NCBI RefSeq assembly: GCF_013410565.1
Contig: NZ_JACCFO010000001.1
Span: 4,898,001 to 4,962,000, forward strand
Length of the DNA: 64,000 nt
Reading direction: 5' to 3'
Source of the DNA: Streptomonospora nanhaiensis
Lineage (GTDB): Bacteria > Actinomycetota > Actinomycetes > Streptosporangiales > Streptosporangiaceae
The notes beneath the pieces are model-generated. The model saw only the letters and a program-made list of their open reading frames with translations. It had not been told where the DNA came from and did not search any database. Below, piece by piece: positions 6,935 through 64,000 of this stretch. A program made the translations under genes and the position numbers. The number at the start of each line of letters is the position of its first letter. The stretch's first letter is position 1.

Positions 6935-8554
6935 TCACGTGGCGAGCCGGCCGCGCACGGAGTCCAGCGCCAGCAGCGCCACGTGCAGCGACAGGCAGGT
7001 CTCGACGGAGTCCAGGTCGGCGCCGAGCACGTGGGAGATCCGGCGCAGCCGCTCGTAGAACGCCGGCCGCGACAGGTGGGCGGTGGACGCCGCCAGGGCC
7101 TTGTTGCGCCCGGCCTCAAGATAGCGGCGCAGCATCTCGGTGAGGTCGCTGCCGTGGCGGGCGTCGTAGTCCAGCAGCGGGCCCAGTTCGCGCTCCACGT
7201 AGGTCTGCAGCCGCTCGTCGTCGCGCAGCAGGTGCAGCAGGCCGCGCAGCCGCAGGTCGGTGAGCCGGTAGAACGGCCGGCCGCCCTCGCGCGGCTCCTC
7301 GTGCGCGGCCACGTCGCCCACCTGGCGCGCCTCCAGGAACGAGCGCCGCACCTCGCGCACGTCCTCGGCGGTGGAGCCGGCCGCGAGCACCGCCTCGGCG
7401 CCCACCCGGCCGCGGATGCGCTCGGCCAGCCGGTGCAGCGCGGAGTCCAGGTCGCCGGACTCGGGCTGGGCCAGCAGCACGCCCACCCGGAGGTCGTCGA
7501 CCGAGCCCACCAGCGCCGCCAGCCGCAGTTCGCGGCAGGCCCGCGCCACCGCCTCGGCGGTGTCGGCCAACCGGGCCTGCGCGGCCAGCCCGGTGCCCGC
7601 CTCGCGCAGCCGCAGCACCAGCCCCACCAGGGGCCGCCCGCCCAGCGGCACGCCCACCGCGCGGGCGCGCACCAGCGCCTCCTCGGGGTCGGAGTAGGCC
7701 CGGTCGATGATCCCGGAGATGATCGTGCGGTGGGTCTGCCGCTCCAGGCTCTCCTGGTGGCGCTCCAGCAGCCGCCCCAGGGCCAGCGTGGTGGCGGCCC
7801 GCTCCAGGAGCATGGTCTGGCGCGGGCTGGGCGCCGCGCCGCAGATGAGGATGAGCCGCCCCCAGTCCTGGCCGCGCGCGCCCACCGTGGTCACCAGCCA
7901 GCCCGAGGGCGCGTCGTGCACCGTGCGCCCGGAGGTGCGCACCGCGCGCGAGCGCGCCTCCCACGAGGCGAGGAGCCGGCCGGGGTCCTCGCCGTTGAGG
8001 TCGCACACCAGCACCTGGTGCGCCAGGTTCTCCAGCACCACCGGGCAGTCCGACAGCTGCGCGATCTCGCGCAGCACCCGCTGCGGGGGCGCCCCCTCGA
8101 CCGACAGCTCGGTGAAGACCTCGTGCAGCCGCGCGGACTCCCGCAGTTCGGCGAGCTGCTGGTTGACCACGCGGGAGTGCACGGCCTCGGTGATCTCGAC
8201 GAACCGGGCCTCGCGCTCCAGGCAGATCACCGGAATGCCCGCCGCCCGCGCCGGCTCCAGCAGCGCCGGAGGCAGCTCGGTGCGGTACTTGCGGCCCAGC
8301 TCCACGGCGATCCCGGCGACCCCGGCCGAGGCCAGGCCGTCGACGTAGCGCTGCAGCGAGGGCGGGTCGTCGGGCATGGCGATCCCGGTGGTCAGCACCA
8401 GTTCGCCGCCGCGCAGCAGGTGGGCGAGGTCGGTGACCTCGGCGATGTGCACCCAGCGGACCGTGCCGCCGAGGCGGTCGGCGCCGACGACCACGCGCGG
8501 GCGGGCGCGCTGGACGGCGGGCAGCCCCAGCACATCGGCGAGCGTCGGCAGCAT
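6935..8554 (-). CDS. PucR-family transcriptional regulator
   Basis: 539-residue regulator with three parts: the PucR N-terminal domain (residues ~5-120, LADVLGLPAVQ ... GGELVLTTGIAMP), a central GGDEF-like/CdaR region, and the C-terminal PucR HTH (residues ~455-520, NKALAASTAHLSRPAFYERLRRI). PucR proteins activate or repress purine, amine or amino-acid catabolic genes. It is divergent from the aminotransferase-mmsA pair, and a perfect palindrome lies in the 211-base gap, so it most likely controls them. Start ATG 8554 agrees with the family's N-terminus (MLPTLADVL). Confidence 0.88.
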   Translation of the reverse strand: MLPTLADVLGLPAVQRARPRVVVGADRLGGTVRWVHIAEVTDLAHLLRGGELVLTTGIAMPDDPPSLQRYVDGLASAGVAGIAVELGRKYRTELPPALLEPARAAGIPVICLEREARFVEITEAVHSRVVNQQLAELRESARLHEVFTELSVEGAPPQRVLREIAQLSDCPVVLENLAHQVLVCDLNGEDPGRLLASWEARSRAVRTSGRTVHDAPSGWLVTTVGARGQDWGRLILICGAAPSPRQTMLLERAATTLALGRLLERHQESLERQTHRTIISGIIDRAYSDPEEALVRARAVGVPLGGRPLVGLVLRLREAGTGLAAQARLADTAEAVARACRELRLAALVGSVDDLRVGVLLAQPESGDLDSALHRLAERIRGRVGAEAVLAAGSTAEDVREVRRSFLEARQVGDVAAHEEPREGGRPFYRLTDLRLRGLLHLLRDDERLQTYVERELGPLLDYDARHGSDLTEMLRRYLEAGRNKALAASTAHLSRPAFYERLRRISHVLGADLDSVETCLSLHVALLALDSVRGRLAT

Positions 8555-57108: not shown

Positions 57109-59436
57109 GTGGTGTTCGGACGAATGGCAGAAAGCGTCCGCCGGCTCCTGGGCAGGCCCGGCGCGGTGGACCTGCGGCCCTACAGCAAGCTTCTGGAAGC
57201 CATCGAGGCGCGCGAGCCGGAGCTGCGCGAGCTCAGTGACTCCGAGCTGACCGACAAGGCCGCCGAGCTCGGCAACGCCGAGCTGCCCTATGACCGCCAG
57301 GACCTGGTCGAGCTGTGCGCCGTGGGCCGCGAGGCCGCGCGCCGCGCGCTCGACGAGCGCCCCTACGACGTCCAGCTGCTCGGCGTCATGGCGCTGCTCG
57401 ACGGCCACATCGCCGAGATGGCCACCGGCGAGGGCAAGACCCTGGCCGGTGCGCTGGCGGCGGCCGGGTTCGCGCTGCGCGGCCAGCGCGTGCACGTCCT
57501 CAGCGTCAACGACTACCTCGCGCGCCGCGACGCCGAGTGGATGGCGCCGCTGTACGAGCGCCTGGGCGTGGCCGTGGGCTGGATCAGCGAGGAGTCCACG
57601 CCCGAGGAGCGCCGCGCGGCCTACGCCGCCGACGTCACCTACGCCTCGGTCAGCGAACTTGGCTTCGACGTCCTGCGCGACCGCATGGTCACCGACGTCG
57701 CCGACCGCGTGGTGCCCGAGCCCAACATCGCGCTCATCGACGAGGCCGACTCCGTCCTGGTCGACGAGGCCCGCGTGCCGCTGGTGCTGGCGGGCGCGGC
57801 CGAGTCCACCGAGGCCGACCTGGAGATGGCCGACCTCGTGCGCCGCCTCACCCCGCGCGTGCACTACGAGGTCGACGTCGACGGCCGCAACGTCCAGCTC
57901 ACCGACGCCGGCATCGACGCCGTCGAGAAGGAGCTGGGCGGCATCGACCTCTACGACGAGCACGACACCTCGGTGCTGCCGCGGGTCAACCTCGCCCTGC
58001 ACGCCCACGTGCTGCTCCAGCGCGACGTCCACTACGTCGTGCGCGACGGCGAGGTCCGGCTCATCAACGAGTCGCGCGGGCGCATCGCCCTCCTGCAGCG
58101 CTGGCCCGACGGCCTCCAGGCCGCGGTGGAGGCCAAGGAGAAGGTCGCCGTCTCCGAGACCGGCGAGGTCCTCGACTCCATCACCGTGCAGTCGCTGGTG
58201 CTGCGCTACCCCACGCGCTGCGGCATGACCGGTACCGCCATGGCCGTGGCCGAGCAGCTGCGCGAGTTCTACGAGCTGGAAGTCGCGGTCATCCCGCCCA
58301 ACAAGCCCAACGTCCGCGAGGACGACGGCACCCGCCTTTACGCCACCCGCGAGGAGAAGGAGGACGCCCTGGTCGAGGAGGTCGCCGAGGTCCACCGGAC
58401 CGGCCGGCCCATCCTCATCGGCACCCAGGACGTCGCCGAGTCCGAGCTGCTGGCCAAGCGCCTGGCCGACGACGGCCTGGAGTGCGTCGTCCTCAACGCA
58501 AAGAACGACGCCGAGGAGGCCGGCATCATCGCCGAGGCCGGCACCTACGGCGCCATCACGGTCTCCACCCAGATGGCCGGCCGGGGCACCGACATCCGCC
58601 TGGGCGGCAGCGACATGGCCGACCGCGACCGCGTGGTCGACAAGGGCGGCCTCTACGTCATGGGCTTCGGCCGCTACCCCAGCAGCCGGCTCGACGACCA
58701 GCTGCGCGGCCGCGCCGGCCGCCAGGGCGACCCCGGCGCCTCGGTCTTCTTCGTCTCCGTCGAGGACGACCTGGTCGCCAACAACGCCCCCGAGACCCGC
58801 GGCTACGAGGCCGAGGGAGACGGCGCCATCACCGACCCCAGCTGGCTGCAGATGGTCGACCACGCCCAGCGGGTCTCCGAGGGCAACCTGCTGGAGGTCC
58901 ACCGCAACACCTGGCGCTACAACCAGCTGATCGACGTGCAGCGCGGCGTGGTGCTGGAGCACCGCGAGGCCGTGCTCACCGACGACCTCGGCGACCGCCA
59001 GCTCAAGCACGACTGCCCCGAGCGCCACGCCGAGCTGGTCGAGCAGGTCGGCGAGGAGGAGGTCGCCCGCGCGGCCCGGCTGATCACGCTGTACCACCTC
59101 GACCGCGGCTGGACCGACCACAACGCGTTCCTGGCCGAGCTGCGCGAGGGCATCCACCTGCGCTTCCTGGGCCGCCGCGACCCCCTGGACGAGTTCAACC
59201 GCGACGCCGTGCCGGCCTTCAAGGGCTTCCTGGACGAGGCCCGCGCCCGCGCCGCCGAGACCTTCCTGGCGGCCGAGGTCGGCGAGGACGGCACGATCGA
59301 CGTCTCCGCCGTCGGCGTCAAGCGCCCCTCGATGACCTGGACCTACATGGTCCACGACCACCCGTTCTCCTCGGCGCTGGAGACCGTGGTCGGCCGCATC
59401 AAGGGCGCGGTCGGCTCGGGGGAGTCCACGGCCTAG
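57109..59436 (+). CDS. secA2: Accessory preprotein translocase ATPase SecA2
   Basis: 775-residue SecA-type motor, shorter than housekeeping SecA (~900-950). DEAD motor: Walker A MATGEGKT (104-111), Walker B LIDEADSVLVDEAR, preprotein-binding domain, second motor STQMAGRGTDIRLGG and QLRGRAGRQGDPG. The C-terminal linker and zinc-binding CxCxxxxxxxxCH tail of SecA1 are absent, typical of SecA2. SecA2 exports a limited set of proteins, often without classic signal peptides. The first codon is GTG 57109 or the adjacent GTG 57112; GGAG lies ~10 bases upstream. Confidence 0.93.
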   Translation: MVFGRMAESVRRLLGRPGAVDLRPYSKLLEAIEAREPELRELSDSELTDKAAELGNAELPYDRQDLVELCAVGREAARRALDERPYDVQLLGVMALLDGHIAEMATGEGKTLAGALAAAGFALRGQRVHVLSVNDYLARRDAEWMAPLYERLGVAVGWISEESTPEERRAAYAADVTYASVSELGFDVLRDRMVTDVADRVVPEPNIALIDEADSVLVDEARVPLVLAGAAESTEADLEMADLVRRLTPRVHYEVDVDGRNVQLTDAGIDAVEKELGGIDLYDEHDTSVLPRVNLALHAHVLLQRDVHYVVRDGEVRLINESRGRIALLQRWPDGLQAAVEAKEKVAVSETGEVLDSITVQSLVLRYPTRCGMTGTAMAVAEQLREFYELEVAVIPPNKPNVREDDGTRLYATREEKEDALVEEVAEVHRTGRPILIGTQDVAESELLAKRLADDGLECVVLNAKNDAEEAGIIAEAGTYGAITVSTQMAGRGTDIRLGGSDMADRDRVVDKGGLYVMGFGRYPSSRLDDQLRGRAGRQGDPGASVFFVSVEDDLVANNAPETRGYEAEGDGAITDPSWLQMVDHAQRVSEGNLLEVHRNTWRYNQLIDVQRGVVLEHREAVLTDDLGDRQLKHDCPERHAELVEQVGEEEVARAARLITLYHLDRGWTDHNAFLAELREGIHLRFLGRRDPLDEFNRDAVPAFKGFLDEARARAAETFLAAEVGEDGTIDVSAVGVKRPSMTWTYMVHDHPFSSALETVVGRIKGAVGSGESTA

Positions 59437-61647: not shown

Positions 61648-62685
61648 CTAGGCCACCGGGATCCCCATCGCCGCGAGTTCGGCTCCGCCGCGCGTGGTGA
61701 CGAACCAGTCGCGGAACCGGTCGTGCGGCGCCGGCGCGCCGGCCGGGGCCAGGGCGCGCTCGCCGACCAGGTGGAACCGGTAGCCGTGCGGCGCGAGCAG
61801 GCCGCTCAGCCGGTCGGCGTCGGCCCCCGGCAGCACCTCGCACAGGATGTCGGGCCGGTGTGCGGCCAGGAACTCCTGCCCGTGCTCGAACACCGCCGCC
61901 TCGGTGCCCTCCACGTCGACCTTGAGCACGGCGGGCGCGCCCGGCGGCACGGCGGCGGTGAGGGAGTCCAGCGCCACCACCTCCACGGGCACACCGTCGG
62001 CGAACACCATCTCGGCGGAGTAGTAGCAGGGCAGCGCGGAGTCGCCCGACCGCGCGGGCATGGTGACGGTGGTCGCGGGGTCGCCCACCCCGACGTGGTG
62101 CAGCGTGGTGCGGTGCAGCACCCGGTTGCGCACGCAGTTGTCGAACAGGGTGTGCACCACCTCGGGCACGATCTCGAAGGCGTGCGCGCGCAGCCGCGGG
62201 TTGACCGCGGTGCCCGCCAGGGTGAACAGGCCGGTGTAGGCGCCGATGTCCAGCAGCACCGCGCTGCGCCGGGCGGCGGCGGCGAACACCCGCAGCGCCA
62301 GGTCGTCGGCGGCGCCCGGGCGCCGGCCCGCGCCCCAGTACAGTTCGGCCGCCACCACGCACGCCGAGGGGCGCAGCATGGTGAACGCGGCGGGTTCGGC
62401 GCCGGGCACCAGGCCGGTGACCTCGGCGACCCGGGCGGGCACCGGCAGCCGGCCGGTGCGGCGCAGGCCCGGCGCCGCCACCGCCACCGCGGCCCGCATG
62501 GCGAGGTTGGCCGGGCCCCAGCCCAGCAGCCGCTTGACGGGCCTCTTGGCGCCGTACCAGCCGCGCCGGCGCGCCCGGGGCGTGGCACGGAAGTCCACCG
62601 CCGCGCCGGCGCCCGCGCGCGCCCCGGTGCGGGGCGGGCCGGCGGGGGAGCGGTGCCGCCCGCCCGTGGTCGACTCCACCGCCAT
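61648..62685 (-). CDS. FkbM-family methyltransferase
   Basis: 345-residue SAM-dependent methyltransferase. SAM motif I LLDIGAYTGLFTL (~140-152), FEIVPEVVHTLFDNC (~167) and the FkbM hallmark LKVDVEGTEAAVFEHG (~255-270) are clear. FkbM enzymes O-methylate sugars, polyketides or other small molecules. The first ~60 residues are a basic, Arg/Gly-rich extension. ATG 62685 has GGAGGG six bases upstream. It lies downstream of the Cys-rich peptide gene on the same strand, but behind a strong hairpin. Confidence 0.85.
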   Translation of the reverse strand: MAVESTTGGRHRSPAGPPRTGARAGAGAAVDFRATPRARRRGWYGAKRPVKRLLGWGPANLAMRAAVAVAAPGLRRTGRLPVPARVAEVTGLVPGAEPAAFTMLRPSACVVAAELYWGAGRRPGAADDLALRVFAAAARRSAVLLDIGAYTGLFTLAGTAVNPRLRAHAFEIVPEVVHTLFDNCVRNRVLHRTTLHHVGVGDPATTVTMPARSGDSALPCYYSAEMVFADGVPVEVVALDSLTAAVPPGAPAVLKVDVEGTEAAVFEHGQEFLAAHRPDILCEVLPGADADRLSGLLAPHGYRFHLVGERALAPAGAPAPHDRFRDWFVTTRGGAELAAMGIPVA

Positions 62686-62760
62686 GGCCGCCCTCCGTGT
62701 CCACGCGCTCACCCAACGCGGCCAGCCTAGCCGGGCGGCGCGGCGCGGGCCGGGCCTCCA

Positions 62761-62804
62761 CGCCGAAAGCCCGCGGACCGGATGGGGTCCGCGGGCCTTC
62801 GGCG
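62761..62804 (-). terminator. Strong terminator after the Cys-rich peptide gene
   Basis: 19-bp stem with one mismatch (62761-62779 with 62786-62804) and a six-base loop, 66 bases after the peptide stop. It separates the peptide transcript from the FkbM gene. Confidence 0.75.
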
Positions 62805-62870
62805 GGCCGCGCCGCTGCGGGGAGCGGGGGGTACGGGATCGCGCGGCGGGCCGGGATCGGCGGGGGCTGG

Positions 62871-62981
62871 TCAGCCGCAGCTGCCCCCGCAGCTGCAGGA
62901 GCCGCCGCTCTGGCAGCCGCAGCCGCAGCCGGAACCGCAGTTGCAGCCGGGGACAAGCAGGACGGGTGCGGATTCGGGCAT
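62871..62981 (-). CDS. Tiny Cys/Gly-rich peptide (36 aa, 8 Cys)
   Basis: ATG 62981 has a perfect ribosome site GAGGAGG (62992-62986) four bases upstream. The peptide has a hydrophobic start (residues 1-12, MPESAPVLLVPG) and a core of Cys, Gly and Ser with Cys at 13, 15, 19, 21, 23, 29, 31 and 35 (C-x-C, then C-G-C-G-C, then C-S-C). This pattern suggests metal binding (metallothionein-like) or a modified peptide. An in-frame ATG at 63044 (GGAG upstream) would add 21 Arg-rich residues. It lies downstream of a CydB-like gene on the same strand and ends before a strong terminator. I know no characterised relative. Confidence 0.7.
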   Translation of the reverse strand: MPESAPVLLVPGCNCGSGCGCGCQSGGSCSCGGSCG

Positions 62982-63136
62982 GGGGCCTCCTCGGACCGGG
63001 CGCGCCCGCAGGTCGGGGAGCACGCGGGCGCGCGGGTGTGCCATGTGCTCGCTCCAAGGCTCACCTGCCCGCTGGCCGTGATCGCCAACCGAACGGTGAG
63101 GAAGGTGTCACCCCCCCGGCGCCACCCCCCGCACCC

Positions 63137-64000
63137 TCAGCCGAAGAAGCCGCCCGCCGGCGCGGGGCGGCGCAGCGTCCGGTACAGGGCCACCTGGCCG
63201 ACCGCCATGACGGGCACCGCCGGGCCCACGGCCAGCCAGAACAGCGCGGACGTGGACGCGGGGACGGCGGCCACCGGCAGCGCCACCGAGGCCGCCACCA
63301 GCAGCGGCACCAGCGCCATCGCCGCCGCCGAGGTGTGCCGGGCCAGCCCCGGGCCCGACAGGCCCGAGGTCGCCGCCAGCACCGCCACCAGGGGCACGGC
63401 GAGGGCGGCGGCGAGCAGCGGCCGGTCCAGCGCGGCGCCGCCGGGCAGCAGCGCGGCGCCCGCGGTGAGCAGCGCCCCGACCAGCGCCGCGCGCGCCAGC
63501 GGCCGGGTGGCCCGCGCGGCGGCGTCGGCGCTCTCGGCCGCGTCGGAGCGCGGCGCGGGCGCGGCGGCGGCCGCCCCCGCGCCCACGGCGGCGGGCACCG
63601 GCGCCGGGGCCTCATGGGGGACCAGCCGCTCGGCGCCGAAGGCGGCACCGCGCAGCGCGAACAGCGCCGCCACGGTGGCCGCGCAGGCGAGCGCGAAGGG
63701 GCTCAGCAGGGCGCCGTCGGCGAGCAGCCCGGCGACCGCCAGGCCCAACGCCACCGCCAGCGTCCAGCTCCCGGCGGTGATCCCCACGTCGCACGCGCCC
63801 CGGCCCGCGGCCGAGGCCCACCGGCCGCGGAACCACAGCCCGGCGTCGCGGAGCAGCCAGCCGGCCAGCAGGGCGGTGAAGACCGGCCACATGCCGGTGA
63901 CGGCCTCGGTCTTGAGGGCGGGGAACAGGCCGGCCACCACGCCGATGGTGCCGACCAGCCAGACCTCGGTGCCCAGGAAGTAGGGCGCCGCGGCGCGCAC
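63137..64000 (-). CDS. CydB-like (cytochrome bd oxidase subunit II-like) membrane protein, partial
   Basis: At least 287 residues; the 5' end lies outside the window. About eight hydrophobic helices. The stretch GTEVWLVGTIGVVAGLFPALKTEAVTGMW (key residues ~10-38) and LRDAGLWFRGRW, then a small-residue GSW helix, follow the CydB pattern (DGNEVWL...FAAFP...LRGVAFEFR), but several usual residues differ, notably G-T for the D-G-N before EVWL. A charged Ala/Pro linker (~130-160) splits the two halves. No CydA is visible; it may lie beyond the edge. Probably co-transcribed with the Cys-rich peptide. Confidence 0.6.
   Translation of the reverse strand: MRAAAPYFLGTEVWLVGTIGVVAGLFPALKTEAVTGMWPVFTALLAGWLLRDAGLWFRGRWASAAGRGACDVGITAGSWTLAVALGLAVAGLLADGALLSPFALACAATVAALFALRGAAFGAERLVPHEAPAPVPAAVGAGAAAAAPAPRSDAAESADAAARATRPLARAALVGALLTAGAALLPGGAALDRPLLAAALAVPLVAVLAATSGLSGPGLARHTSAAAMALVPLLVAASVALPVAAVPASTSALFWLAVGPAVPVMAVGQVALYRTLRRPAPAGGFFG

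Follow-up and report, generated by a model that had tools for sequence, protein, structure and literature searches.

A cysteine-rich 36-residue peptide encoded behind cydB in Streptomonospora nanhaiensis is probably an MtpA-family metallothionein-like peptide

A very short cysteine-rich gene follows a CydB-like gene in Streptomonospora nanhaiensis. Is it a real gene, does it serve the oxidase beside it, and to which family does it belong? We examined it in a stretch of 64,000 nucleotides (contig NZ_JACCFO010000001.1, positions 4,898,001 to 4,962,000), referred to here as the window, whose numbering is used throughout. The peptide gene lies on the minus strand at 62871..62981, stop codon included. 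Its open reading frame runs from an ATG at 62981 to a stop ending at 62871 and encodes 36 aa, MPESAPVLLVPGCNCGSGCGCGCQSGGSCSCGGSCG. All eight Cys residues fall within the last 24 of the 36 residues. The peptide contains no aromatic and no His residue and has the features by which metallothioneins are recognized (small size, richness in Cys, CxC motifs, and few aromatics). The ATG is preceded, at a distance of four bases, by the ribosome-binding site GAGGAGG (62986..62992, minus strand). Genes of this size tend to be missed by gene callers.

Among 200 genomes from the same family, protein search at E ≤ 0.01 found relatives in 33, which belong to 15 of 68 genera; one of these is probably a chance match. 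Two of the 34 match rows have a stop inside and look like chance: that of G014 (E 0.009) and one for a second place in G113 (E 0.007). We read 30 loci among the 32 other genomes, the window included and G132 and G054 left out. In all 30, the start codon stands behind a Shine-Dalgarno (SD)-type site, as found by a script that prefers SD-like starts and so is biased in favor of such sites. The eight Cys, Gln24, and several Gly are invariant across the 30 loci, and the shared core is C-x-C-x3-C-x-C-x-C-Q-x4-C-x-C(-x3-C). The N-termini are variable, down to three residues. Over all pairs of the 30 cores (23 residues each), pN/pS was 0.26, and variability at first, second, and third codon positions was 0.094, 0.081, and 0.186, the third being about twice the others; since core pairs are not independent, we take these figures as support and not as a formal test. 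The first-pass annotation of this DNA had proposed a small Cys-rich gene of metal-thiolate type, starting at the same ATG behind GAGGAGG and carrying eight Cys. The 30 loci confirm that reading frame, and the gene is supported as real. The annotation had also suggested looking for coding constraint in the synonymous and nonsynonymous pattern, which we found, and for a homologous peptide with a ribosome site beside CydB-like genes, which recurs, a CydB-like gene adjoining it in 22 of the 30 loci. In the window's own genome, a second match (E 0.5) contains no CxC-rich peptide among its frames with at least seven Cys, and a search of plasmids with the Streptomonospora alba homologue gave no match up to E 1.

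Library scans returned no significant Pfam or NCBIfam model for the peptide, nor did any curated metallothionein model or solved structure match it significantly. One of 27 members touched the Pfam model Metallothio_5 at E 0.35, which is not significant. A match of one of the 27 to Herpes_capsid (Pfam, E 2) was dismissed as chance. Copper metallothioneins of fungi and insects are short Gly/Ser/Cys peptides with CxC pairs. The window peptide has no significant similarity to them, and the likeness is likely convergent. Among actinobacteria, MymT, the mycobacterial copper metallothionein, is tied to copper resistance and predicted to bind six Cu(I) in the passage of a review that treats it (PMC7558416). 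Like the window peptide, it is a small, originally unannotated Cys-rich actinobacterial peptide; we liken the two by this description and claim no relatedness.

Closer relatives came from Streptomycetaceae. A search of genome contigs returned at least 21 loci, at least 17 of them in Streptomyces, Kitasatospora, or Streptantibioticus and the others in Streptomonospora, Nocardiopsis, Thermobifida, and one actinomycete bin. In a sample of the phylum, 12 of 396 genomes matched, namely, the window genome and 11 genomes of one other genus (g70; E 1.3e-4 to 4.1e-11), in which the peptide is at the phoU locus. We considered 28 Streptomycetaceae loci, made up of 17 named ones (among the matches listed) and the 11 of g70. 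Within this set, among the matches listed, the peptide lies beside phoU in 25 loci; phoU is codirectional and just upstream in 23 and convergent in 2, while 1 locus is at a contig edge and 2 are elsewhere. The PhoU assignment was tested with Pfam for one Streptomyces locus and for the window genome, and PhoP, PhoR, and Gpm were named by family and place. The strict core pattern is present in all 28 (among the matches listed). An eighth Cys, found in 30 of 30 loci of the window's family, is present in 18 of the 28 Streptomycetaceae forms among the matches listed, the other 10 having seven. In alignment A2, seven Cys, the C-G-C-Q center, and G26 are invariant in 27 of 27. Cys spacing and the Gln are thus unchanged across two families.

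In Streptomyces, the place directly downstream of phoU is that of mtpA (SCO4227), which is called a gene for a metallothionein or small metal-binding protein in passages of three papers (PMC11019849, PMC2267785, and PMC3282765). One of them lists SCO4227 as "Metallothionein protein (mtpA)" between SCO4226 and phoU (PMC2267785). The peptides that we found at that position are very small and carry C-x-C-x3-C-x-C-x-C-Q-x4-C-x-C. The window peptide has the same Cys core, spacing, and Gln, in a comparison that covered these peptides and not SCO4227 itself. The identification with MtpA is read from the locus position and from the peptides found there. The initial claim that the peptide was undescribed is not supported, as its family corresponds to the mtpA found next to phoU in Streptomyces. 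In the window genome, the gene is not directly beside phoU. There, phoP-phoR-like genes are accompanied by a divergent phoU and then carD, and we found no such peptide in 15 kb. The window peptide instead lies behind cydAB, and its upstream sequence differs by eye from that of mtpA. Because position is no criterion of sequence, it is only the locus-based name that does not apply.

Published accounts of mtpA differ on its control. Its expression in Streptomyces rises under phosphate limitation independently of PhoP, according to one account (PMC3282765). In contrast, another passage describes SCO4227 as regulated by PhoRP and down under oxidative stress (PMC4991794). In one Streptomyces, mtpA is reported to have its own promoter, described as responding to magnesium but to neither manganese nor zinc, with copper unmentioned in the passage concerned, and MtpA was dispensable for the antibiotic phenotype studied (PMC11019849). 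In PMC7244524, PMC5427975, and PMC9218956, the name appears in the reference list alone. The name MtpA is an old one in the literature, and the passages cited here report neither a measured metal nor a demonstrated function for it. Titles and abstract openings among the matches listed contained no account of the peptide gene in the window's lineage.

The neighbor in the window is indeed CydB-like, as the first-pass annotation had held. The gene (63137..64000, minus strand, running past the window end) encodes a protein of 330 aa, which as a whole matches PF02322 with E 1.5e-28, and it is separated by 155 nt from the peptide gene on the same strand. The genes before it are those for CydA, a response regulator, a histidine kinase, and an EamA transporter. 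This CydA (L038:7191-8438, minus strand, just past the window end) is of a short type that its Pfam model matches at positions 1-233 and 318-418 only; the missing or diverged middle is presumably the Q-loop region. The window genome has two further CydA matches, both full-length.

This arrangement raises the possibility that the peptide is a dedicated accessory of the neighboring short CydAB oxidase, delivering metal or protecting the assembly of the haem site. In its favor, 22 of 30 loci have a CydB-like gene immediately upstream of the peptide and on its strand (truncated by the end of the contig in L028, and aligned over no more than about 128 residues in L013 and L015). Where any cydB match is present (23 loci), the gap between cydB and the peptide gene is 128 to 315 nt. 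We found, however, that the peptide is kept in eight of the 30 loci without an intact adjacent cydB, so that it is not always linked to cydAB. Seven of these have no cydB match upstream, and the eighth, L024, has only short cydB pieces, the longest covering 44 residues of the C-terminus, an apparent remnant. Four of the eight genomes (G164, G088, G045, and G113) have a single full-length CydA match only, and the other four (G192, G043, G021, and G076) also have the shorter CydA type at another place. The link to cydB is therefore common and not needed. The surrounding block is partly kept in two of the eight, L106 retaining EamA, the kinase, and the regulator and L110 retaining EamA; in several relatives, the cydAB genes are missing from the peptide's syntenic block. 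Of the 200 family genomes, 192 contain CydA and 33 the peptide, which makes the oxidase much the more widespread of the two. The homologues in Streptomycetaceae adjoin phoU, and bd oxidases contain haem and no copper. We consider the accessory role very improbable, and the functional tie to the oxidase drawn in the first-pass annotation, like a partnership with CydB, is not supported. The 22 adjacent loci may nevertheless reflect some shared regulation, and read-through from cydAB may occur. In L112, an apparent cydB remnant (about 7229-7432, minus strand) lies immediately before the intact peptide gene.

The gap upstream of the peptide gene contains a conserved 25-nt element, GGTTGGCGATC-N7-GCGGGCA (63066..63090, minus strand). 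The pattern RRTTGS-N14-19-GGGMA occurs in 25 of 30 upstream regions, compared with a mean of 0.3 and a maximum of 3 of 30 in 200 rounds of dinucleotide shuffling, a figure that overstates the case because the pattern was derived from the same, related regions. The element is present in 19 of the 23 gaps between cydB and the peptide gene and, among the eight loci that lack an intact cydB, in every one except L016 (seven), with L024 counted in both sets. It probably serves the peptide gene as a promoter or operator. Two exact matches were found in the window's own genome, the element itself and one within a CstA-like coding frame. With two mismatches allowed, 18 sites were found versus 6 for the reversed pattern, some excess. 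We placed 14 of the 17 other sites in script-called frames, and 12 fall inside coding frames and 2 between them. We do not claim a regulon.

Behind the peptide gene is a strong hairpin (62761..62804, minus strand). The fold of 62755-62811 reaches −46.7 kcal/mol (z −6.2), and none of 200 shuffles was as good. A best single hairpin of −24 kcal/mol or lower follows the peptide gene in 26 of 30 loci, window included, by raw energies without a shuffle control. The first-pass annotation had named this segment a dedicated terminator. The hairpin is very stable and has no U-run, and we take the segment as a probable terminator. Two Rfam matches at the hairpin and peptide were to microRNA models, far below gathering scores, and were taken as chance. 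Between the element and the hairpin, the peptide gene would form its own transcription unit.

A peptide of this shape could also be the precursor of a ribosomally synthesized, modified product (RiPP), for example, one with thioether bridges. Its N-terminal stretch is short and leads into an end rich in Cys and Ser, and an FkbM-type methyltransferase gene lies downstream of it in the window (61648..62685, minus strand). We found an FkbM relative within 1.5 kb downstream in nine of 30 loci, on the same strand in five and on the other in four; FkbM is absent from the 1.5-kb flanks of the other 21. In all nine loci that we extended (the eight without intact cydB and one with cydB), a SAM-methyltransferase-like gene, Sper, is upstream of the peptide, and a different small gene, WPC, comes next after it. 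Spacing and the Gln are invariant in two families, which also argues against a modified precursor. In seven of the 17 named Streptomycetaceae forms among the matches listed, only MSG precedes the core, giving 27 aa. Their starts were chosen by script as the SD-preceded start nearest the core, and with starts so chosen, these seven forms lack a leader. These leaderless 27-aa forms speak against the modified-peptide precursor that the annotation had entertained, and we regard such a product as very improbable, slightly more so than an oxidase accessory. The WPC product is a small conserved protein with a C-terminus rich in Cys and Trp-Pro-Cys, encoded after the peptide in L104 to L112. The WPC gene had no match in the window stretch (L038), and one WPC protein had no Pfam match.

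The peptide is independent of cydAB and of phoU as neighbors. We think it likely that it is an MtpA-family peptide, small, cytosolic, and metallothionein-like, at another locus, and no dedicated part of the bd oxidase. Set against this reading are the Streptomycetaceae forms with seven Cys, the promoter response to magnesium and not to zinc described for mtpA, and the absence of a significant match to any solved structure or curated metallothionein model. We saw no signal peptide by eye, and a cytosolic location would fit this. Its thiolates would coordinate soft metal ions such as Cu(I) or Zn in a cluster, and this cluster may buffer both metal and thiol redox state, perhaps with redox-dependent release.

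One alternative that overlaps with this explanation, which itself allows a redox role, is a thiol buffer or sensor that works by disulfide exchange and not through metal. CxC-rich spacing in a short peptide is of the metallothionein type, and we count this against disulfide exchange. A passage of one review proposes that PhoU and the mtpA metalloprotein might sense or resist oxidative stress (PMC7866108). Consistent with a link to such stress, SCO4226-4230 are reported as down-regulated in oxidative stress and not so in an hsr mutant (PMC4991794). Down-regulation under oxidative stress is ill-suited to a protective scavenger, and we judge a purely thiol-based role unlikely, though less so than either an oxidase accessory or a modified product.

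On the metallothionein-like reading, the MtpA family also occurs in a second lineage of actinobacteria, where it occupies a different locus. This separates the peptide from both phoU and cydAB and suggests that its role, in metal or in redox chemistry, is a general one. More tentatively, it is conceivable that a bacterial metallothionein family without a Pfam or NCBIfam model, shared by Streptomycetaceae and the Nocardiopsis-Streptomonospora-Thermobifida group, has been wired to two unrelated programs, one being phosphate starvation and the other perhaps low oxygen or oxidative stress, entered through the conserved 25-nt element beside the short cytochrome bd operon. The peptide is small enough to be synthesized, which makes its role testable. 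Elsewhere in the window, a 775-aa open reading frame at 57109-59436 (plus strand) appears by eye to encode an accessory SecA, and a relative of it lies near the peptide in five of the nine extended loci.
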